DNA of 10,491 nucleotides from Planctomycetota bacterium (lineage in GTDB: Bacteria > Planctomycetota > Phycisphaerae > UBA1845 > CAIVHJ01). Shown here piece after piece: positions 762 through 10,307 of the stretch. Numbering within the stretch: position 1 is the first letter of the stretch; each line of letters starts with the position of its first letter. The notes under the pieces were generated by a model. It was not told the origin of the DNA. It ran no database searches and was given only the letters and a program-made list of their open reading frames with translations. Position numbers and translations under genes: made by a program. The stretch spans positions 1 through 10,491 of the forward strand of contig JADFJZ010000011.1 in NCBI GenBank assembly GCA_022565195.1, read 5' to 3'.

Positions 762-2783
762 GTGGGACAGACGCTCGTCGAGAAGATTGCACAACGGTTC
801 GCCGTCGGAGTGCCGGAAGGGCACACTGTCCGCAGTGGTGACTTCCTCTCCATTCGGCCGGCGCACGTCATGACGCATGACAACACCGCCGCCGTGATAC
901 CCAAGTTCGAAAAGATGGGAGCCACGGAGATATCCGATCCGGCCCAACCCGTCTTCACGCTCGACCACGACATTCAAAACACCGCTCCGGAGAATCTGGG
1001 AAAGTATGCCAAGATCGAAGCCTTTGCCAAGAAGGAGGGCGTCGCATTCTATCCGGCCGGCCGAGGCATCGGACACCAGATCATGGTTGAAGAGGGTTAT
1101 GTGTTGCCCGGTTCTTTGGTCGTGGCGTCCGACTCGCATTCCAATCTATATGGGGCTCTGGGTGCGCTGGGCACGCCGGTAGTCCGCACCGACGCCGCCG
1201 CTATCTGGGCCACCGGGCGGACATGGTGGCAGGTGCCGGATGTCGCGCGCGTGTGTTTCAGCGGTGAGTTGCAGGCGGGGGTTGTCGGCAAGGACGTGAT
1301 CATCGCGCTGTGCGGCGTGTTCAACAAAGACGAAGTGCTCAATTGCTGCGTCGAGTTCACCGGCCCCGGTGTGGCCGGCTTGAGCATGGAAGAGCGGCTG
1401 ACCATCAGCAACATGACTACCGAATGGGGCGCGCTGGCGGGCGTGTTTCCGTACGATGAAGTCACTCGGCAATACTTGTTGGCCCGTGCGGAGCATTTCG
1501 AGGAGCGCGGCGACCAAGCTCCGCGCATCACGGCCGAGTTGGTTCGGAAACTGGATGCCGACGCCCTGCAAGCCGATGACGACGCATTGTATGCCAAGGA
1601 GTTGGAGTTTGATCTTGCGGCCGTCACGCCTTTCATCTCCGGGCCCAATACGGTCAAGACCATCACGGCACTGCCCGAACTGGAAGAAAAGGACATCCGC
1701 ATCGACAAAGCATACTTGATGAGCTGCGTCAACGCCCGTGTACAGGACTTTGAAGCCGCGGCCAAGGTTGTTCGCGGACAGCGCGTGGCGGACCATGTGG
1801 AGTTCTATATCGCCGCCGCATCGGACGAGGTCGAACGCGAAGTGAAGCAGCGCGGATTGTGGAAGACGTTGCTCGACGCAGGCGCGATCGAGCTTCCGCC
1901 CGGCTGCGGGGCGTGCATCGGGCTTGGTCGCGGCACGCTCGAAGCGGGCGAAGTCGGTATTTCCGCCACCAATCGCAACTTCAAAGGCCGAATGGGCTCG
2001 CGCGAAGCATTTGTGTACCTGTCCAGCCCGGCCGTGGTCGCAGCGTCGGCCATCGCCGGTAGGATTACCTCTCCCCACTCGCTTGATGACAAAGAGCCGC
2101 GGGCGGAACCTGTCCCGATGGGATCGGGAGCCCGCGCGGACGCAAGAGAAGTGGCCGCAGCCCTCCAGCGTGGTGCTTCCTGCCGCGTCAACAAGCGCCC
2201 GCCTGCGGTCGCTGCGGCCCTGCAAATCCTACCCGGCTTTCCAAAGCAGATCGAAGGCGAACTGCTGCTCGTGCCACAGGACAACCTTAACACCGACGGC
2301 ATTTACAGCAAGGACTATACATACAAGGAAGGCATGACGCCGGAGCAAATGGCCGCCGTGGCCATGGAGAATTACGACCCGAATTTTCAGAAAATCGCCA
2401 AGGAGGGTGACATCCTGGTCGGCGGGTACAATTTCGGCAGCGGCTCTTCTCGCGAGCAGGCCGCCACGGCGCTCAAGTACCGCGGCATCGCCATGATCAT
2501 CGCCGGCTCGTTCAGCCAGACCTACAAACGCAACGCCTTCAACAACGGCTACATTTGCATCGAGTGCCCGGAACTGGTCGATGATTTGAAGGCAGCCCAC
2601 GCAGATGATTCGTCGGCGACCATCCGCGTTGGCGGCGTTGGCACAGTTAATTTCTCAGAATCCCAGATCGAATTCAGAGGCACGCAATATGGATTCTCAC
2701 CTCTTGGCGAAATCGCCCAAGAGTTGGTGGTCAAGGGCGGTTTCGAGGCGGTGATTGGAGCGCAATTGAGGACTGATGACTGA
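762..2783 (+). CDS. Aconitase-superfamily hydratase, fungal Lys4 (homoaconitase)-like
   Basis: A 673-residue [4Fe-4S] hydro-lyase expected to isomerise citrate/isocitrate or a longer homologue through the cis-aconitate-type alkene. The whole protein matches the style of fungal homoaconitase: PVFTLDHDIQN, FYPAGRGIGHQ, VVASDSHSN, GTPVVRTDAAAIWATG, NMTTEWGALAG, GISATNRNFKGRMGSREA, then a swivel domain with NTDGIY, GGYNFGSGSSREQAATA and AGSFSQTYKRNAFNN. Cluster cysteines are Cys322 (LMSCVNAR), Cys382 and Cys385 (PPGCGACIGLG). The length is close to Lys4 and shorter than bacterial AcnA or AcnB. The neighbouring NADP-type isocitrate dehydrogenase and citrate lyase genes point to citrate or a close analogue, whereas family resemblance points to homoaconitate, so substrate is open. 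Codons 445-459, in the linker before the swivel domain, are made by a 45-nt palindromic repeat (separate entry). Confidence 0.88.
   Translation: MGQTLVEKIAQRFAVGVPEGHTVRSGDFLSIRPAHVMTHDNTAAVIPKFEKMGATEISDPAQPVFTLDHDIQNTAPENLGKYAKIEAFAKKEGVAFYPAGRGIGHQIMVEEGYVLPGSLVVASDSHSNLYGALGALGTPVVRTDAAAIWATGRTWWQVPDVARVCFSGELQAGVVGKDVIIALCGVFNKDEVLNCCVEFTGPGVAGLSMEERLTISNMTTEWGALAGVFPYDEVTRQYLLARAEHFEERGDQAPRITAELVRKLDADALQADDDALYAKELEFDLAAVTPFISGPNTVKTITALPELEEKDIRIDKAYLMSCVNARVQDFEAAAKVVRGQRVADHVEFYIAAASDEVEREVKQRGLWKTLLDAGAIELPPGCGACIGLGRGTLEAGEVGISATNRNFKGRMGSREAFVYLSSPAVVAASAIAGRITSPHSLDDKEPRAEPVPMGSGARADAREVAAALQRGASCRVNKRPPAVAAALQILPGFPKQIEGELLLVPQDNLNTDGIYSKDYTYKEGMTPEQMAAVAMENYDPNFQKIAKEGDILVGGYNFGSGSSREQAATALKYRGIAMIIAGSFSQTYKRNAFNNGYICIECPELVDDLKAAHADDSSATIRVGGVGTVNFSESQIEFRGTQYGFSPLGEIAQELVVKGGFEAVIGAQLRTDD
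2094..2138 (+). repeat. 45-nt palindromic repeat, copy 1, in frame inside the aconitase homologue
   Basis: This stretch matches 5608-5652 at 43 of 45 positions. It folds into a 7-bp outer stem (2098-2104 with 2130-2136) and a 7-bp inner stem (2113-2119 with 2123-2129, loop GGG), with an 8-nt bulge at 2105-2112. The length is a multiple of three and no stop occurs in any of the six frames. It is translated here as EPRAEPVPMGSGARA. The two differences from copy 2, at 2101 and 2133, are opposite each other in the outer stem. I do not recognise the family; in-frame palindromic elements of Rickettsia are the nearest analogy. Confidence 0.85.
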
Positions 2784-2807
2784 TTACTCTATGCAGGAAC
2801 CAGAACC

Positions 2808-3365
2808 ATGCGTGAAGACATCAAGGCCCTGTTCCCGGAACTCGAACAGATCGCAGACGCCAGCCTCCGCGAGAAGGTGATCGACGTGTGGGTCGATTCG
2901 TTGACCACCGGCGGATGGACTGTTGAGGAATTGAAACATGTTCCGTTCACGCTGCTGGCAGGCGATATTGACATTCGTTTTCTTGAACACGTGCGGACCT
3001 GCGCACGGATGTCGATCGCGATCCATGACGTGCTTAAAGATGCCTACGGCGAGCGCATGCCCTTGCATAAGGACCATTTGATCGCCGGAGCGCTGTTGGC
3101 GGACGTCGGCAAGCCGATCGAATACGTCAAAGGCCCGGACGGCACACCGGCCAAGGGCCGTCGCGGCGATATGCTGCGGCACCCATTCAGCGGCGTAGGC
3201 ATGTGCTGGAAACACGGTCTGCCGGACGAAGTGATGCACATGGTCGCGACGCACTCCAAGGAAGGTGATCACGTGCAGCGAACGCTCGAATCGATCATAT
3301 TCCATCATGCGGACTTTGTGGATTTCGATATTGCTTGTGCGTTGGGTAAGATGGGAAGGAAGTAG
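2808..3365 (+). CDS. HD-superfamily protein with an altered HD dyad
   Basis: A 185-residue soluble protein with the spacing of an HD-type metal phosphohydrolase. Candidate ligands in order are His61 (FLEHVRT), Asp99 in GALLADVGK, His125 (LRHPFSG), His149 (VATHSKEGDH) and His166/His167/Asp169 (FHHADF). The first residue of the signature His-Asp dyad is Ala98, so the usual two-metal centre may be incomplete. The ATG at 2808 is chosen because AGGA at 2795-2798 lies 9 nt upstream; an ATG at 2791 is out of frame. The gene starts 24 bp after the aconitase homologue, so it is probably co-transcribed with it. Its position in a citrate lyase neighbourhood suggests a regulatory or metabolite-handling role, but no substrate can be named. 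Confidence 0.7.
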   Translation: MREDIKALFPELEQIADASLREKVIDVWVDSLTTGGWTVEELKHVPFTLLAGDIDIRFLEHVRTCARMSIAIHDVLKDAYGERMPLHKDHLIAGALLADVGKPIEYVKGPDGTPAKGRRGDMLRHPFSGVGMCWKHGLPDEVMHMVATHSKEGDHVQRTLESIIFHHADFVDFDIACALGKMGRK

Positions 3366-3425
3366 AGACATCGTCCGTCGTTTGCTCGTACAACTTGAAT
3401 AGAAACCCGAATCTCGTTCGGAAAA

Positions 3426-3483
3426 GCTGCTAAACGGCAAGCCACGGGTGGGTCTCTCAATGTGACTTCGTCGTTTAGCAGAC
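3426..3483. repeat. Hairpin element with terminal inverted repeats
   Basis: This lies in the 190-bp gap between the HD gene and the PrpD-family gene. A perfect 10-bp inverted repeat, CTGCTAAACG at 3427-3436 and CGTTTAGCAG at 3472-3481, can be extended inward by a G-T and a C-G pair and encloses about 35 nt. Inside is a small CCAC-GG-GTGG palindrome at about 3442-3451. The right end, 3463-3483, recurs as an exact 21-nt inverted copy at 10198-10218. It has no coding capacity. It could be a small non-autonomous mobile element or a repeated intergenic hairpin; no T-run follows, so a classical terminator is not supported. I see no other clear signal in the gap apart from the ribosome binding site at 3544-3548. 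Confidence 0.65.
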
Positions 3484-3555
3484 GCTGCGATTTGTGCTGT
3501 CCGTCAGGAATCAATAGCGGGCATCGCATCGCTGAATGTTCTCAGGAGTTCTGGA

Positions 3556-4929
3556 ATGTCGACGATTACCGAGACAATCGCGCGTTGGGCGTGCGATTTG
3601 AAATATGAAGACTTGACTGCCGAGTCCATCGACGCCGCCAAGCGTTTCTTGTACGACACGATCGGCTGTGCGCTGGGCGGGTATCAAGTGCATGACTGCG
3701 AGATGTTTCTCGAACATTATCGTGACCTTGGCCAGCCGGGGCCTTGTACGGTGATTGGCGCGGGTGACAAAATGAACGTCGTCGCCGCGTCCATGCTCAA
3801 CGCCTTGATGGTTCGGGCGATGGACTATAACGATATCTATTGGAAGCAGGACCCGTCGCACCCGTCTGACTTGCTCAGCGCCCCGTTGGCCATCGCGGAG
3901 TGGAAGAAGATGACCGGCAAGGATTTGCTCGTCGGCATCGTCCTCGGCTACGACATCACCATGCGGCTGTGCCACATTGCCACGCCGGGCATCCGCGAGC
4001 GCGGCTGGCACCATGCGACGCTGATGGCCTATGCCACGCCAGTGGTGGCGGGGCGGATGCTTGGGCTATCTGCCGAGCAAATGCAACACGCCATCGGCAT
4101 CGCCAGTTGCCATGGCTTCACGCTCGGCTGTGCGGTGGCGGGCAAGCTGACCAAGATGAAGAACACCGTCAGCCCGATGGCCACCCGCGACGGCGTCGAG
4201 GCAGCGCTGCTGGCGTTGAAGGGCTACACCGGCCCCGAAGGCGTCATCGAGGGCAAAGAAGGCATGGAGCACTGCCTCGGCGAAGGCTGGGACTACAGTT
4301 GGATCACCGACAACCTCGGCGACCGCTTCATGATTACGGATTGCGGCATGAAGAGCTTCCCGATCGAAGCCCTGATGCACTCGCCGGTCTCCGCCACGCT
4401 GCACTTGGTCAAGGAGCACAGCCTCACGCCGGAGAACATCAAGGAAATCCGAATCGACTCGATCGCCCGCGCGGCCGACATCCTGTCCGACCCTGCCAAG
4501 TACAAGCCCGAGAGCAAAGAGTCAGCCGACCACAGTCTGCCGTATTGCATCGCGGCGGCGGTGACCGACGGCATGGTCACGCCGAAGCAATTCAAGGACG
4601 ATCGCTTGTGGGACGAGCGCCTGCGGGCCCAAATGGCCAAGGTCAAGGTCGTCGCCAACGAGGAGTTCGAGCGGGCCTTCCCCGCCAAGCAATGTACGCG
4701 TGTGACGATCACCACGACCGACGGCAAGCAAGTGACGCACGCGCTCGACGTGCCCAAGGGCGACCCCCGCGACCCCATGACGCCCGACGAACTGCAAGTC
4801 AAATTTGACGCCCTCGCCGAGCCGGTCATGTCCGATAAGCGCCGTGCGGAATTGAAGGATTGCATATTCTCTTTGGAATCGCTCGACGATGTCAGTAGAT
4901 TGATGGCACTGACTGTCGCTGACAAATGA
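3556..4929 (+). CDS. MmgE/PrpD-family protein (2-methylcitrate dehydratase / cis-aconitate decarboxylase fold)
   Basis: A 457-residue cytoplasmic enzyme of the family that includes 2-methylcitrate dehydratase PrpD, cis-aconitate decarboxylase and iminodisuccinate epimerase. By motif alignment it keeps the active-site set of the cis-aconitate decarboxylase/PrpD fold: Asp93 in AMDYNDIY, His102 in HPSD, His152/His153 in GWHHATL, Lys202 in TKMKNTVSP, Lys266 in CGMKSFP and His275 in ALMHSP. ESADHSLPY and the closing PKGDPRDPMT are also family motifs. AGGAG at 3544-3548, 7 nt before the ATG, supports the start. It ends 11 bp before citDE. The setting suggests dehydration of a tricarboxylate such as 2-methylcitrate or citrate, but these residues do not separate the family's reactions, so no symbol is given. 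Confidence 0.88.
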   Translation: MSTITETIARWACDLKYEDLTAESIDAAKRFLYDTIGCALGGYQVHDCEMFLEHYRDLGQPGPCTVIGAGDKMNVVAASMLNALMVRAMDYNDIYWKQDPSHPSDLLSAPLAIAEWKKMTGKDLLVGIVLGYDITMRLCHIATPGIRERGWHHATLMAYATPVVAGRMLGLSAEQMQHAIGIASCHGFTLGCAVAGKLTKMKNTVSPMATRDGVEAALLALKGYTGPEGVIEGKEGMEHCLGEGWDYSWITDNLGDRFMITDCGMKSFPIEALMHSPVSATLHLVKEHSLTPENIKEIRIDSIARAADILSDPAKYKPESKESADHSLPYCIAAAVTDGMVTPKQFKDDRLWDERLRAQMAKVKVVANEEFERAFPAKQCTRVTITTTDGKQVTHALDVPKGDPRDPMTPDELQVKFDALAEPVMSDKRRAELKDCIFSLESLDDVSRLMALTVADK

Positions 4930-4940
4930 GCTGAGTGGTA

Positions 4941-6197
4941 ATGCAATCCAACCCTAACACTGCCGAGGCCGGGCGCCGTGGCGAAGACGTGCGCAGCGAT
5001 TGCTGGGTGCGGATTGCGCCGACGGATTCCGGCGGGATCGAGCTTGATCTGAAGAGCAAGGTCGAGTCGATGTACGGTGACTCGATTCGCGCGCTCGTGG
5101 CGGATGAGTTGGCGGCGCTGGGCGTGGGCAATGCCAAGGTCGAGATTGAGGACGCCGGAGCTTTGCCGTTTGTGCTCATGGCGCGACTGGAATGTGCAGT
5201 GCGGCGACTCGGTGTGAATGTTGGCGACGGTTATGTGCCGGATTTCGCAGCAGGGACGGAGTATGAAACTGAGCGTGAGCGTTTTCGGCGCTCGCGGCTG
5301 TACTTGCCGGGCAACGAGCCGAAGTTCATGCTCAACGCCGGTTTGCACGGGCCGGACGGCGTGATTCTCGATCTGGAAGACAGCGTGGCGGCTTCGGAAA
5401 AGGACGCCGCTCGGCTGATCGTGCGTAATGCCCTGCGCAGCGTCGATTTCAAAGGCGCCGAGCGCATGGTCCGCATCAATCAGGGTGAAATGGGTTTGGA
5501 GGATCTCGACTACATCGTGCCGCACAATGTCCACGTGGTTGTGATTCCCAAAGTCGAGTCGCCCGAACAAGTACAACAAATCGACGCCCGAATACAAGAC
5601 ATCCAAGGAGCCGCAGGCGGAACCTGTCCCGATGGGATCGGGAGCCTGCGCGATGACGCCGAATCAGGCAACACCGGGAACAACATTTTCCTCATGCCGA
5701 TCGTCGAAAGTGCCCTCGGCGTGATTCGAGCATATGAAATCGCCACGAGTTCGCCGAACATCTGCGCGATCACCATCGGCCTGGAGGATTACACGGCGGA
5801 TATCGGCACGGAGCGCACCGACGACGGCCGAGAGAGCTTCTGGGCACGTTCGCAGGTGGTCAACGCCGCCCGGGCAGCCGGCGTGCAGCCGATCGACTCG
5901 GTGTTCTCCGACGTCAGCGATATGGGCGCCCTGCGCGAGAGCGTGCTGGAGGCTAAGGGCCTCGGCTTCGACGGCAAAGGCTGCATCCACCCGCGCCAAA
6001 TCGCTGTGGTACACGAGGCCTTCGCGCCGACGAAGACCGAACTGGAGAAGGCCCGGAGGATCGTGGCTGCTTTTGAAGAAGCGCAAGAGAAAGGCCTCGC
6101 GGCGGTGTCGCTGGGCAGTAAGATGATCGATCCGCCGGTCGTGAAGCGGGCGCAGCGCGTGGTGCGTTTGGCCTGGACGACGAGAATGGTACAATAA
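4941..6197 (+). CDS. citE: Fused citrate lyase acyl-carrier and beta subunits (CitD-CitE)
   Basis: A 418-residue fusion. Residues 1 to about 97 resemble CitD, the acyl carrier: WVRIAPTDSGGIEL, SKVESMYGDSIRA and DAGALPFVLMARLE correspond to the E. coli CitD core. Ser19 (VRSDCW) is the likely attachment point for phosphoribosyl-dephospho-CoA, though its register is one residue off the E. coli ES pair. Residues 115-418 are CitE, which cleaves citryl-ACP to acetyl-ACP and oxaloacetate: RRSRLYLPGNEP, DGVILDLEDSV, MVRINQ, VIPKVESPEQ, FLMPIVES, LEDYTADIGTERT and GFDGKGCIHPRQI. An in-frame GTG at 4935 is possible, but the ATG at 4941 is preferred; neither has a strong ribosome binding site. A 45-nt repeat adds residues in a loop before FLMPIVES. 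The partner citF lies 1.35 kb downstream beyond an inserted patch. A lyase acting on a citrate homologue remains possible. Confidence 0.85.
   Translation: MQSNPNTAEAGRRGEDVRSDCWVRIAPTDSGGIELDLKSKVESMYGDSIRALVADELAALGVGNAKVEIEDAGALPFVLMARLECAVRRLGVNVGDGYVPDFAAGTEYETERERFRRSRLYLPGNEPKFMLNAGLHGPDGVILDLEDSVAASEKDAARLIVRNALRSVDFKGAERMVRINQGEMGLEDLDYIVPHNVHVVVIPKVESPEQVQQIDARIQDIQGAAGGTCPDGIGSLRDDAESGNTGNNIFLMPIVESALGVIRAYEIATSSPNICAITIGLEDYTADIGTERTDDGRESFWARSQVVNAARAAGVQPIDSVFSDVSDMGALRESVLEAKGLGFDGKGCIHPRQIAVVHEAFAPTKTELEKARRIVAAFEEAQEKGLAAVSLGSKMIDPPVVKRAQRVVRLAWTTRMVQ
5608..5652 (+). repeat. 45-nt palindromic repeat, copy 2, in frame inside the CitE domain
   Basis: This is the second copy of the element at 2094-2138, with differences only at 5615 (A for G) and 5647 (T for C). 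These pair in the outer stem (5612-5618 with 5644-5650), so the change keeps the helix perfect. The codon boundary falls at 5607, giving a different reading frame from copy 1 and the peptide GAAGGTCPDGIGSLR. It sits in the loop after the RIQD segment and before the conserved FLMPIVES strand, where CitE proteins are normally shorter. Confidence 0.85.
6114..6195 (+). repeat. Direct repeat A: 3' end of citDE
   Basis: The last 27 sense codons of citDE plus the first stop base align without gaps to 6994-7075, matching at 66 of 82 positions. The two repeats bracket the nucleotidyltransferase/HEPN pair. Nine codons differ silently and five change the residue, so both copies evolved as coding sequence before the present arrangement formed. 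Confidence 0.8.
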
Positions 6198-6244
6198 GCG
6201 GCCGGTCACATGCCCCCGCCGGCGGAGGCAACATGGCCTGGTGC

Positions 6245-6248
6245 GGAG
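6245..6248 (+). promoter_or_regulatory. Ribosome binding site deciding the start of the first nucleotidyltransferase
   Basis: GGAG lies 7 nt before the ATG at 6256. The in-frame GTG at 6241 has only a GGAGG 12 nt upstream (6224-6228), so the ATG is preferred. Confidence 0.5.
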
Positions 6249-6255
6249 CCTCGAC

Positions 6256-6576
6256 ATGCGTGGTGATCTCAAAACGCTCCTGGGAGAACTGAAGGCCGGT
6301 TTGGACGGGCTCTACGGCGGTAGTCTGCGCGGGGTTTATCTTTACGGGTCGTACGCTCGCGGCGACTACGACGCGGAGTCCGATTTGGACGTGCTCGTGG
6401 TCCTCGACGATTTCAGATCGTACGGCGCACAGGTTGACCTCACAGCCGAATTGGCCGCCGCACTCTCTCTCGAATACGGCGTCAGTATCAGCCAGGTCTT
6501 CCTGCGCGAGCGCGACTGGCTATCATCCGATTCGCCCTTCCTGCGCAGTGTGCGCGACGAGGCCACCGCCGCATGA
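6256..6576 (+). CDS. MntA-like minimal nucleotidyltransferase (probable antitoxin)
   Basis: A 106-residue protein of the small nucleotidyltransferase family. Gly31-Ser32 and Asp43-x-Asp45 (YGSYARGDYDAESDLDVLVV) form the GSX10DXD signature of MntA-type antitoxins, which in studied pairs inactivate a HEPN RNase by adding AMP. The tail SLEYGVSISQVFLRERDW is typical of nucleotidyltransferases paired with PF05168-type HEPN proteins. The stop codon overlaps the HEPN start in an ATGA, which indicates coupled translation. A longer form from GTG 6241 would add five residues. The pair lies between citDE and citF with no evident link to citrate metabolism, and is inferred to be an acquired toxin-antitoxin module. 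Confidence 0.82.
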   Translation: MRGDLKTLLGELKAGLDGLYGGSLRGVYLYGSYARGDYDAESDLDVLVVLDDFRSYGAQVDLTAELAAALSLEYGVSISQVFLRERDWLSSDSPFLRSVRDEATAA

Positions 6577-6956
6577 ACGAGTCCACGTGCAAGTTGCTCG
6601 ATAAGACCGATCGGTCCATAGCCGCGGGCGAGAGTGCGCTGGCCGATGGTCACGTCGAGGCCGCTGCCAATCGGGCGTACTACGCGATGTTTTACGTCGC
6701 CGAGGCGCTGCTCAATGAGCGCGGGTTGCATTTTCGCAAGCACGGCGGCGTGCATGGCGCCTTCGGAGAACATTTTGCCGAGACCGGCCTGCTTGATCCT
6801 CTGTATCATCGTCGACTGCTGGCGGCCTTCAACAAGCGCATTGCCGCCGATTACGGTTTGGATGCGGAAGTGAGTGCCGCGGAGGTTGAAGAAATGCTTG
6901 CTCAAGCGCGCGAATTCCTCCAGGCCGCGCGAGGATTTCTGGGAACGAGCGCGTGA
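6573..6956 (+). CDS. HEPN-domain protein (probable toxin partner of the nucleotidyltransferase)
   Basis: A 127-residue all-helical protein matching the HEPN domain style of PF05168: AANRAYYAMFYVAEALL, then LHFRKHGGVHGAFGEHF, and a C-terminal helix with EVEEMLAQAREFL. It overlaps the upstream nucleotidyltransferase by 4 bp, the normal layout of MNT-HEPN pairs. The RX4-6H RNase motif typical of HepT toxins is not in its usual place; the only match by spacing is Arg55-X5-His61, in an atypical position, so RNase activity is uncertain. Duplicated citE sequence begins almost at the stop codon, and the last codons may overlap the junction. Confidence 0.78.
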   Translation: MNESTCKLLDKTDRSIAAGESALADGHVEAAANRAYYAMFYVAEALLNERGLHFRKHGGVHGAFGEHFAETGLLDPLYHRRLLAAFNKRIAADYGLDAEVSAAEVEEMLAQAREFLQAARGFLGTSA

Positions 6957-7086
6957 CCGGCAGAAAGGATTCAACCCCGGCGTCTTCCCGTTTGGCAGCA
7001 GGATGATCGACCCGCCGGTCGTCACACGTGCGTTGCGAGTCGTGCGCTTGGCCGGGACAGCGAGAATGGTGCAATCAGTGGGATGA
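6957..7086 (+). pseudogene. citE 3'-end remnant (direct repeat B)
   Basis: This codes in one frame for the C-terminal end of a second CitE: QKGFNPGVF, GSRMIDPPVVTRALRVV and RLAGTARMVQ, ending at TGA 7084-7086. The core 6994-7075 matches the citDE end (6114-6195) at 66 of 82 bases and 22 of 27 residues. It has no start codon or enzyme body, so it is a relic. Its GVF-x-x-GSRMID segment looks more like the usual CitE family end than the intact gene does, so it may be the older end of the resident citE. Weak similarity in this frame may reach back into the HEPN 3' end at about 6939. Confidence 0.78.
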
Positions 7087-9118: not shown

Positions 9119-10198
9119 ATGCGCAGTAAGACGATCACGACTTCCTTCGGGCCGTGCGTTGTCCAGATCGGCGAGGGCGCCCTGGCTTGCCTGGGCGATG
9201 TGGCGGCGGGGGCCAGTTCGATTGTCATCGTCACGGATGATGTCGTTGCACCTCTCCACGGCTCGAAGGTTCTCGATGCACTCGACAACGTGAACCTGAC
9301 CATGCACGAATGGACAGTGCCCGCCGGTGAAGCCAGCAAGTCGCTGTGGCAGGCGGAGAGCTTCTATGATTTCCTGGCCTCCAAGAGGTGCGATCGGGGC
9401 ACCCTGATTGTGGCGCTGGGTGGCGGGGTGGTCGGCGATCTGGCAGGGTTTGTAGCGGGCACGTGGATGCGCGGCGTCCGAATCGTGAACTGCCCGACCA
9501 CGCTCCTGGCCATGGTCGATGCATCGATCGGCGGGAAGACCGGCCTGAACCACGCCGGGCGCAAGAACGCCGTCGGCGTGTTCCACCAGCCGGAAGCTGT
9601 ACTCGTTGACGTAACGACGCTCACCACACTGGATGATCGCGCGTTCAACGCCGGGATGGCGGAGAGCATCAAGCACGGCATGATCGCGGACGAAGTGTTC
9701 TTGTCGTGGCAGATGGAGCACGCCCAAGAAATCAAGGGACGCGAACCGCGCGTTCTGGAGGATCTTGTCGCGCGCAACATCGAGATCAAAGCTGCTCATA
9801 TCGAGCAGGACGAACGAGATCAGAGCGGTGTGCGGGCGAAGTTGAATTTCGGGCACACTATTGGGCACGCCATTGAAGTCGTATCCGGCTATGCGCTTCC
9901 GCACGGTGAGTGCGTCGGGCTCGGGATGCTGGCGGCCGTCCGCATCGCGATCGGCAGAGGGCTGGTGAATGAGGACGTTCGTGATCGTTTACGCACGGGC
10001 CTGAACTCATTCTCGTTGCCATGTCAATTCACTTCTCAAGGCGACATTAGCGCAATGATGAGCGCGCTCCGCGGCGATAAAAAGTCGGTTGGCGGGGTTG
10101 CGCGGTTTGTGCTGCCGACGAAGATCGGCGAGGTCACGGTGGGGTATGAAGTGGGTGATGCTGAGATCGAAAGTGCGATCGCTGAGTTGATGGAGTAG
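9119..10198 (+). CDS. aroB: 3-dehydroquinate synthase
   Basis: A 359-residue AroB, which converts DAHP to 3-dehydroquinate in the shikimate pathway using NAD and zinc. Visible motifs are PAGEASKS, VALGGGVVGDLAGFVAGTW, RGVRIVNCPTTLLAMVDASIGGKTG, NAVGVFHQPEAV, the zinc-ligand Glu in NAGMAESIKHG, and the zinc-ligand His residues in LNFGHTIGHAIE and LPHGECVGLGM, followed by GDKKSVGG. The length is normal. The ATG at 9119 is chosen because AGGA overlapping the citF stop lies about 9 nt upstream and the N-terminus then matches the family; an upstream GTG-type extension would run into citF in another frame. It sits only 11 bp after citF, so it probably shares that transcript, although its pathway is unrelated. 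Confidence 0.93.
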   Translation: MRSKTITTSFGPCVVQIGEGALACLGDVAAGASSIVIVTDDVVAPLHGSKVLDALDNVNLTMHEWTVPAGEASKSLWQAESFYDFLASKRCDRGTLIVALGGGVVGDLAGFVAGTWMRGVRIVNCPTTLLAMVDASIGGKTGLNHAGRKNAVGVFHQPEAVLVDVTTLTTLDDRAFNAGMAESIKHGMIADEVFLSWQMEHAQEIKGREPRVLEDLVARNIEIKAAHIEQDERDQSGVRAKLNFGHTIGHAIEVVSGYALPHGECVGLGMLAAVRIAIGRGLVNEDVRDRLRTGLNSFSLPCQFTSQGDISAMMSALRGDKKSVGGVARFVLPTKIGEVTVGYEVGDAEIESAIAELME

Positions 10199-10218
10199 TC
10201 TGCTAAACGACGAAGTCA
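10198..10218 (-). repeat. Half copy of the hairpin element, inverted
   Basis: These 21 nt are the exact reverse complement of 3463-3483, the right end of the element at 3426-3483, and begin at the last base of the aroB stop codon. The match stops after base 10218 and no second inverted arm follows, so this is a truncated or diverged copy. The remaining gap to 10307 shows no clear terminator or gene. Confidence 0.65.
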
Positions 10219-10307
10219 GTTCGAATGTGCCTTCCGGGGGTGTGCAGTCTGGATGTGCAGTGCAGGGGAGAGGAACTCTTGTGGGGGATGCGCTTGTGCT
10301 GCACGGA

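Follow-up and report, generated by a model that had tools for sequence, protein, structure and literature searches.

Two hairpins in enzyme genes

The stretch analysed here, referred to as the window, comprises 10.5 kb (10,491 nucleotides, nt) of Planctomycetota DNA (contig JADFJZ010000011.1) and contains two copies of a 45-nt hairpin element, each lying in frame inside an enzyme gene (Table 1). A first-pass annotation had described near-identical 45-mers at 2094-2138 and 5608-5652 that match at 43 of 45 positions, and both the coordinates and the identity were reproduced. The only mismatches fall at positions 8 and 40. These two positions pair with each other in the hairpin, and the differences compensate, the pair being G-C in the aconitase gene and A-T in citE. 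All 14 assigned stem pairs (seven outer and seven inner) are unbroken in both copies. It had also been claimed that stops are absent from all six frames of each copy and that the two hosts use different frames; both points held on re-examination, the element being read as EPRAEPVPMGSGARA in the aconitase and as AAGGTCPDGIGSLR in CitE. A 24-nt core occurs twice in the window at up to three mismatches, and none of 200 shuffles gave any match. As single strands, the copies fold better than most dinucleotide shuffles (z −2.2 to −2.7). The repeat is real, but 45 nt is not its natural boundary, conservation in the sister genome G001 (see below) extending between about −4 and +9 relative to the core.

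Table 1 Hairpin elements and host genes in the window
Feature	Position	Strand	Remark
Element copy 1, long-loop form, in aconitase-family gene	2094..2138	+	Read as EPRAEPVPMGSGARA
Outer stem left arm, copy 1	2098..2104	+	Pairs with 2130-2136; the minus-strand fold gives the same pairing
Outer stem right arm, copy 1	2130..2136	+	Stem assignment
Inner hairpin of long loop, copy 1	2113..2129	+	7-bp stem, GGG loop
Element copy 2, long-loop form, in CitD-CitE gene	5608..5652	+	Read as AAGGTCPDGIGSLR, in another frame than copy 1
Outer stem left arm, copy 2	5612..5618	+	A 5615 pairs with T 5647 (G-C in copy 1)
Outer stem right arm, copy 2	5644..5650	+	Stem assignment
Inner hairpin of long loop, copy 2	5627..5643	+	Stem assignment
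Host gene 1, homoaconitase/aconitase-family protein	762..2783	+	Homologues with PF00330 and PF00694
Host gene 2, fused citrate lyase acyl carrier protein (CitD) and CitE-type lyase	4935..6197	+	Homologues with PF06857 and PF03328

The insertion sites in relatives

The nearest record (L001, metagenome-assembled genome (MAG) B14T1B10; sister MAG G001) encodes an aconitase-family protein 98% identical to that of the window and matches the window over about 4 kb at 91.5% DNA identity. At the aconitase site, the long form is present in both, with one mismatch in the right arm in G001, while the relatives P0003 and P0004 carry the short-form peptides EPQASACA and EPRASARA and P0002 has a diverged version. 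At the citE site, the 50 aligned nt upstream, as far as the left arm, are identical in the window and G001, and the loop measures 25 nt in the former and 4 nt (TTCA, the short form) in the latter, a difference of 21 nt, which leaves the frame intact; just downstream of the element the two have diverged and differ in length. The homologues P0125 and P0128 have no element at this site. A census of TTYA-family peptides, the patterns of which do not cover long-loop copies, found them in the aconitase loop of 5 of 108 anchored homologues (120 fetched), with four matches elsewhere in the proteins, and in the CitE loop of 18 of 116 (120 fetched), with one match elsewhere.

In close homologues, both sites are already occupied by the short hairpin (seen as DNA at citE, as peptide only at the aconitase site). 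It is therefore improbable that the window copies were gained as two new 45-nt insertions in genes without an element, and the long loop probably represents a later change at occupied sites. It would have arisen by exchange, conversion or insertion within a resident short hairpin, the 21-nt step having kept the frame. Two comparisons bear on the proposal that the element was inserted. Same-length segments of unrelated DNA in homologues would have spoken for another origin; the citE site is shorter or empty in homologues, which favours the proposal. As to recurrence of the 45-mer, G001 has two related copies besides the aconitase copy (at most three mismatches), in addition to the family described next, and this outcome favours the proposal as well.

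A family of REP-like hairpins

A search of G001 with the pattern GAGCCGC-R-GGC-loop-GCC-Y-GCG gave 92 matches, and the reversed control gave none. The family consensus, CAA(G/C)-GAGCCGC(R)GGC-loop-GCC(Y)GCG-CGRA, resembles repetitive extragenic palindromic (REP) elements and includes conserved flanks, CAA(G/C) upstream and CGRA downstream. The loop is mostly TTCA or TTTA (core of 22 nt); in about one-fifth of the copies it is long and consists of GGAA and a second hairpin (core of 42-44 nt). The stem covaries: in the 89 of 91 distinct copies whose flanks were complete, a left A is met by a right T in 38 of 40 and a left G by a right C in 49 of 49, the pattern allowing only A or G on the left and C or T on the right. 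Inverted doublets 65-66 nt apart were found in C57, C97, C111, C208 and C290 of G001, and 49-nt doublets in G009. The strict pattern misses stem variants, including the G001 aconitase copy with its right-arm change and a variant-stem copy in the G001 valyl-tRNA synthetase (ValRS), both of which are outside the 91.

According to gene calls from a home-made codon model rather than a standard gene finder, 22 of the 91 copies lie inside predicted genes, 67 are intergenic and two cross a gene edge. The coding share of the fetched G001 stretches, which were centred on elements, was 75%; hence, genes are avoided. The in-gene copies use five of the six frames, and the sixth, which has a TGA, is unused; the short form has TGA in one antisense frame, and the TTTA loop also stops one sense frame. 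Pfam domains were present in 18 of 20 host open reading frames (ORFs) scanned, a set that excludes the citE ORF; they include UvrA (with two copies), alanyl-tRNA synthetase (AlaRS), PurL and thiolase. The earlier view of a palindromic element inserted in variable loops of genes, like those of Rickettsia, is borne out, but it is too narrow, given the intergenic majority, the inverted doublets and the transposon ends described below.

Across the class, the exact short TTYA-loop form occurs in 45 of 397 genomes, with up to 186 copies each (reversed control 0), and the long form in 6 of 397. An exact 31-mer had no match in genome contigs and a 28-mer none in viral contigs; the long form is therefore rare and variable. 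A loose pattern, CCGCRGGCN{2,32}GCCYGCG, was tried on 150 genomes and was uninformative, the reversed controls often being near or above the matches, and it was replaced by the tight short-form pattern.

Three further palindromes of G001 were recorded. In the ValRS gene (L294, C302), a solo family hairpin with a variant yet complementary stem is read as ESARAEARGSL, away from the site of transposase insertion described below. At position 1956 of L151 (C168), in the gene of an AMP-binding enzyme, a copy begins like the family (CAAGGAGCCGCAGGCTT) and ends in a different palindrome, as if two palindrome families had recombined. In C30 (L137 and L150), a palindrome array stands beside a standalone Y1 transposase gene, and GGAATGAAAATA between its hairpins is similar to the long-loop GGAATGAAA; the long form may combine parts of two REP families.

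Y1 transposases embedded in essential enzymes

The transposase family Y1 (PF01797) was searched for first in 12 relatives rich in element copies, where weak matches fell inside very long open frames. It was found that a Y1 domain of about 170 amino acids (aa) is embedded in frame in host enzymes, in several cases with a translated GAGCCGC hairpin on either side. With an alignment of six embedded domains (A1) as the query, matches at E ≤ 1e-6 were obtained in 221 of 397 genomes, many of them to standalone and more distant Y1 genes; at least about 42, counted by eye among the matches listed, lie in frames of 400 aa or more.

For a Pfam scan, 39 Y1-containing frames were chosen for the length of the open frame, and host domains were identified in 34 of them: ValRS in 13 (including L266, which is truncated at the end of its contig and could be assigned only to class I), AlaRS in ten (one with two Y1 domains), PurH in five, a DUF1156 methyltransferase in three, and leucyl-tRNA synthetase (LeuRS), MutS and MmeI in one each. 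The remaining five had none. In the MutS frame, Y1 precedes the first MutS domain. By our reading of the tables, host sequence flanks Y1 on both sides in 28 of the 39 (12 ValRS, nine AlaRS, five PurH, LeuRS and MmeI). In an alignment of the fused ValRS L213 with the Thermus ValRS (1gax), the first matched segment ends at chain residue 367 and the second begins at 365; about 240 aa are added between them and no residue is lost there. The corresponding site in PurH is empty in G001 and G242. An AlphaFold model of the PurH-Y1 fusion (14 rows) had a mean local confidence (pLDDT) of 59.8 and a global score (pTM) of 0.30 and was not used for any inference.

Among 5.8 billion proteins, searched with the Y1 region of a fused ValRS for candidates of about 0.55-1.75 times its length, 46 were found at E ≤ 0.001, which by Pfam are 25 ValRS, 14 PurH and seven MmeI-type proteins. 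One of them had been named PurH / RayT by its source. P0264, a PurH named as from Phycisphaerae bacterium RAS2, is encoded on a contig of 4,324,589 bases, and an assembly chimera is therefore unlikely in its case.

Other embedded Y1 types were observed in L209, L212, L219, L205, L208, L215 and L207, with ValRS, PurH, AlaRS and a restriction-type gene as hosts (those of L209, L212, L219 and L207 assigned by eye). Their translated ends differ (GTGVSPV/GRDARAT, CGTGLQPV/HRLKTGAT, RARKEA/PLPYGRGS, VAQPPPAG), and the phenomenon is therefore not confined to one hairpin family. In the ValRS genes of G009 and G248 (L292, L295, L291, L296), a short repeat of the GACGAAGG type lies in frame at the insertion site with no transposase.

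Hairpins as probable transposon ends

Around eight Y1 domains, 16 copies of the exact short form were counted, where the density in the genomes predicts 0.10. Copies are present at six of the eight loci; in five of these the left-hand side is plus and the right-hand side minus, and in one (L226) both sides are minus; the exact short form is absent beside Y1 at L229 and L236. With the strict pattern, the element was found on both sides of Y1 in 6 of 24 placed loci (30 examined), and also in L218. The same arrangement is visible in the proteins, where the left and right end peptides belong to the same variant in 22 of 43 anchored proteins (46 found), for example EPRASARA/ARAEARGS, EPRTSVRA/ARTEVRGS and EPRPSGRA/ARPEGRGS. 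The stem variants matched at both ends were RA/AR, QA/AC, RT/VR, RP/GR, PT/VG and RH/CR; such a match was never seen at 5,000 anchors placed at random in those proteins that have a clear Y1 motif.

The HUH, W[TA] and Y----Q motifs are present in alignment A1 and in the 46 proteins. In a profile alignment of the latter, each of the two active-site histidines is kept in 46, the tyrosine in 45 and the Q in 45. In a wider set of 47 genome rows the Q is kept in only 16, and many of these rows are therefore more distant. The one pair with unsaturated divergence (G022/G058) gave a nonsynonymous rate (dN) of 0.08 and a synonymous rate (dS) of 0.66. In a Y1 tree of 79 rows, PurH forms a single clade of 19 (support 99/93). 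The tree requires seven host changes in total, the minimum possible being six and the shuffled mean 38.8; ValRS by itself needs four changes, three of them forced. The history of the domain is hence one of few jumps between hosts followed by long residence.

Origin of the hairpins and alternative explanations

The family is repeated, covaries in its stem, and occurs both between genes and, in any open frame, within them. In relatives, Y1 domains with intact catalytic residues lie in frame in essential enzymes and have these hairpins on their flanks, for the most part inverted and translated. It is likely that the 45-mers of the window belong, as long-loop forms, to a REP-like hairpin family found in Phycisphaerae-type Planctomycetota, and that the copies of this family are non-autonomous derivatives of the ends of class-3 TnpA_Y1 (HUH) transposons. 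The Y1 enzyme would nick GAGCCGC hairpins and move them through single-stranded DNA, and copies would land at many places, with selection in genes retaining only those that are free of stops, preserve the frame and lie in tolerant loops or linkers. An in-frame element that has landed in this way could survive in the loop of a gene, its enzyme perhaps expressed with the host, and short enzyme-less copies like those of the window would come after. According to the available text of PMC8266576, TnpA_REP, which belongs to the same enzyme superfamily, cleaves REP substrates in vitro when they are single-stranded, at a point next to the hairpin, and also joins strands; by analogy with these relatives, a class-3 Y1 may cut and join at the GAGCCGC hairpin.

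Several observations weigh against this derivation. A cognate Y1 of this type was not found in G001. Of the two matches there, the one listed (C232) is a weaker, standalone gene, and Y1 is absent from both the ValRS and the PurH site of this genome. At none of the six Y1 loci of G001 does an element lie within 500 nt, the nearest being about 630 nt away in a neighbouring gene in C168. G398 has 73 exact copies and no Y1 match; copy number therefore does not simply track the transposase in these MAGs. The 18 placed loci other than the six flanked ones gave no match to the strict pattern, whatever their ends may be. Among the 43 anchored proteins, four (P0243, P0247, P0249, P0252) have recognisable but unlike end variants, and 17 have no peptide recognisable by this test at one or both ends, some of these using another frame for the left end (AAGFSPR). 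The strong sorting of the Y1 tree by host implies that jumps of the full element are rare. A core length that preserves the frame was not significantly commoner in genes (21 of 22 as against 55 of 69; Fisher p 0.11), and an empty-site pair with a target duplication was not obtained. The standalone Y1 genes of G001 were considered as the cognate enzyme and found unsupported, as none of the six is flanked; those in C30 and C168 adjoin other palindromes by eye.

Some of these points would be accommodated if the hairpins were an ordinary REP family, spread by an unrelated RAYT or by slippage, and if the embedded class-3 Y1 genes had picked up repeats at shared tolerant sites. Unrelated palindromes do share tolerant loops, the PurH site holding a different Y1 type in G248, L212 and L219 by our reading; the presence of the element in G398, where no Y1 was detected, and the four proteins with unlike ends also agree with this account. 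It is nevertheless unlikely, in view of the 16 exact copies where 0.10 were expected and of the same stem variant at both ends in 22 of 43 proteins against none of the random anchors, which independent capture does not predict. The alternative that the insertions have been domesticated, with the peptides or the embedded Y1 serving a selected function in the host enzyme, draws on the single PurH-Y1 clade and on purifying selection in the one measurable pair, which indicate a long stay. It is considered quite improbable: relatives lack the insert at the same sites, no host residues have been lost, the ends vary and multiply, and other Y1 types occupy the same PurH site (our reading). A functional RNA structure, such as an mRNA hairpin, attenuator or stability element conserved in transcripts and not mobile, would agree with the covarying stem and with the folding of the copies relative to shuffles. 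Copies in both orientations, in unrelated genes, between genes and in five frames, together with other peptides or none at the same sites in homologues, make it very improbable.

Beyond the derivation of the hairpins from class-3 transposon ends, the data lead us to favour, with more reserve, the existence of translation-through transposons. These would be HUH elements whose hairpin ends can be read in several frames. The complete transposon, with its enzyme, could then reside in an essential gene as an insertion that is intein-like, though not spliced, and sheltered by the host, and short relics of the ends would seed many in-frame peptides across the proteome.

Comparison with known systems

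Two parts of this picture are already known: intragenic REPs (PMC3733652) and, in Planctomycetes, class 3 TnpA_Y1 accompanied by hairpins in high copy (PMC6006769), both from the accessible portions of these papers. As described there, REP elements associated with TnpA_REP (RAYT) in REPtrons are hairpins of 20-40 nt in high copy, mostly intergenic, partly in doublets and in some cases wholly within ORFs (PMC3733652), and the present family is similar in these respects. Like REPtrons, it includes Y1 transposase genes flanked by hairpins, here in relatives and not at the six Y1 loci of G001. Unlike in REP, the GTAG or CGTC tag is absent, the conserved flanks being CAA(G/C) and CGRA, and, unlike REPtrons in the available description (PMC3733652), the transposases themselves lie in frame inside host genes. 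With class 3 TnpA_Y1, the family shares the Y----Q and W[TA] motifs, the occurrence in Planctomycetes and the atypical high-copy flanking hairpins (PMC6006769, accessible text). The same text treats class 3 members as separate genes (178 aa in one table row) and mentions a few unexpectedly long proteins, discarded as fusions or annotation errors, whereas the long frames found here are in-frame insertions in recognisable enzymes. CGGA lies 3' of the hairpin in 34 of the 49 G-stem copies; its bearing on the class 3 foot, the 5' tetranucleotide CnGA, would depend on the strand and the cut site.

As in the Rickettsia palindromic elements (PMC10969869), palindromes lie in frame inside unrelated genes. 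The latter measure about 150 bp in the available description, on which this comparison is based, unlike the 22-43-nt cores in Planctomycetota with a transposase partner in relatives. In-frame insertion within essential enzymes is also a property of inteins, but no intein or Hint family was found in the 39 ORFs (Pfam, E ≤ 0.001).

No description of in-frame Y1 transposases in tRNA synthetases or PurH was found in the literature searched (titles and abstract openings, mainly open-access and without bioRxiv). If they exist as proposed, translation-through transposons would provide both an origin and a mechanism for gene-inserted palindromic elements. For the Rickettsia elements, no mobilising enzyme that has been tested is mentioned in the accessible parts of the sources, and for intragenic REPs these give association only. 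In the present case, the hairpins flank a catalytically intact HUH transposase that shares one open frame with tRNA synthetases and PurH, which reduces the question to a test of a single enzyme on a single hairpin. Embedded Y1 domains would also explain odd long insertions and annotated fusions such as PurH / RayT, and the insertions would reveal loops of essential enzymes that tolerate about 200 extra residues.

Other repeats in the window

A 93-nt segment that ends the citD-citE gene has a second copy 880 nt downstream (6109-6201 and 6989-7081, 78% identical). The second copy lies beyond two small ORFs (6241-6576 and 6573-6956), which we take, by their look, to be a nucleotidyltransferase-HEPN pair, and the arrangement resembles a cassette inserted at the end of a gene. 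An intergenic inverted repeat (3442-3483 and 10198-10239) has an exact core around CGTTTAGCAGAC and recurs in L001 at 4114-4134; it is perhaps another dispersed repeat family.

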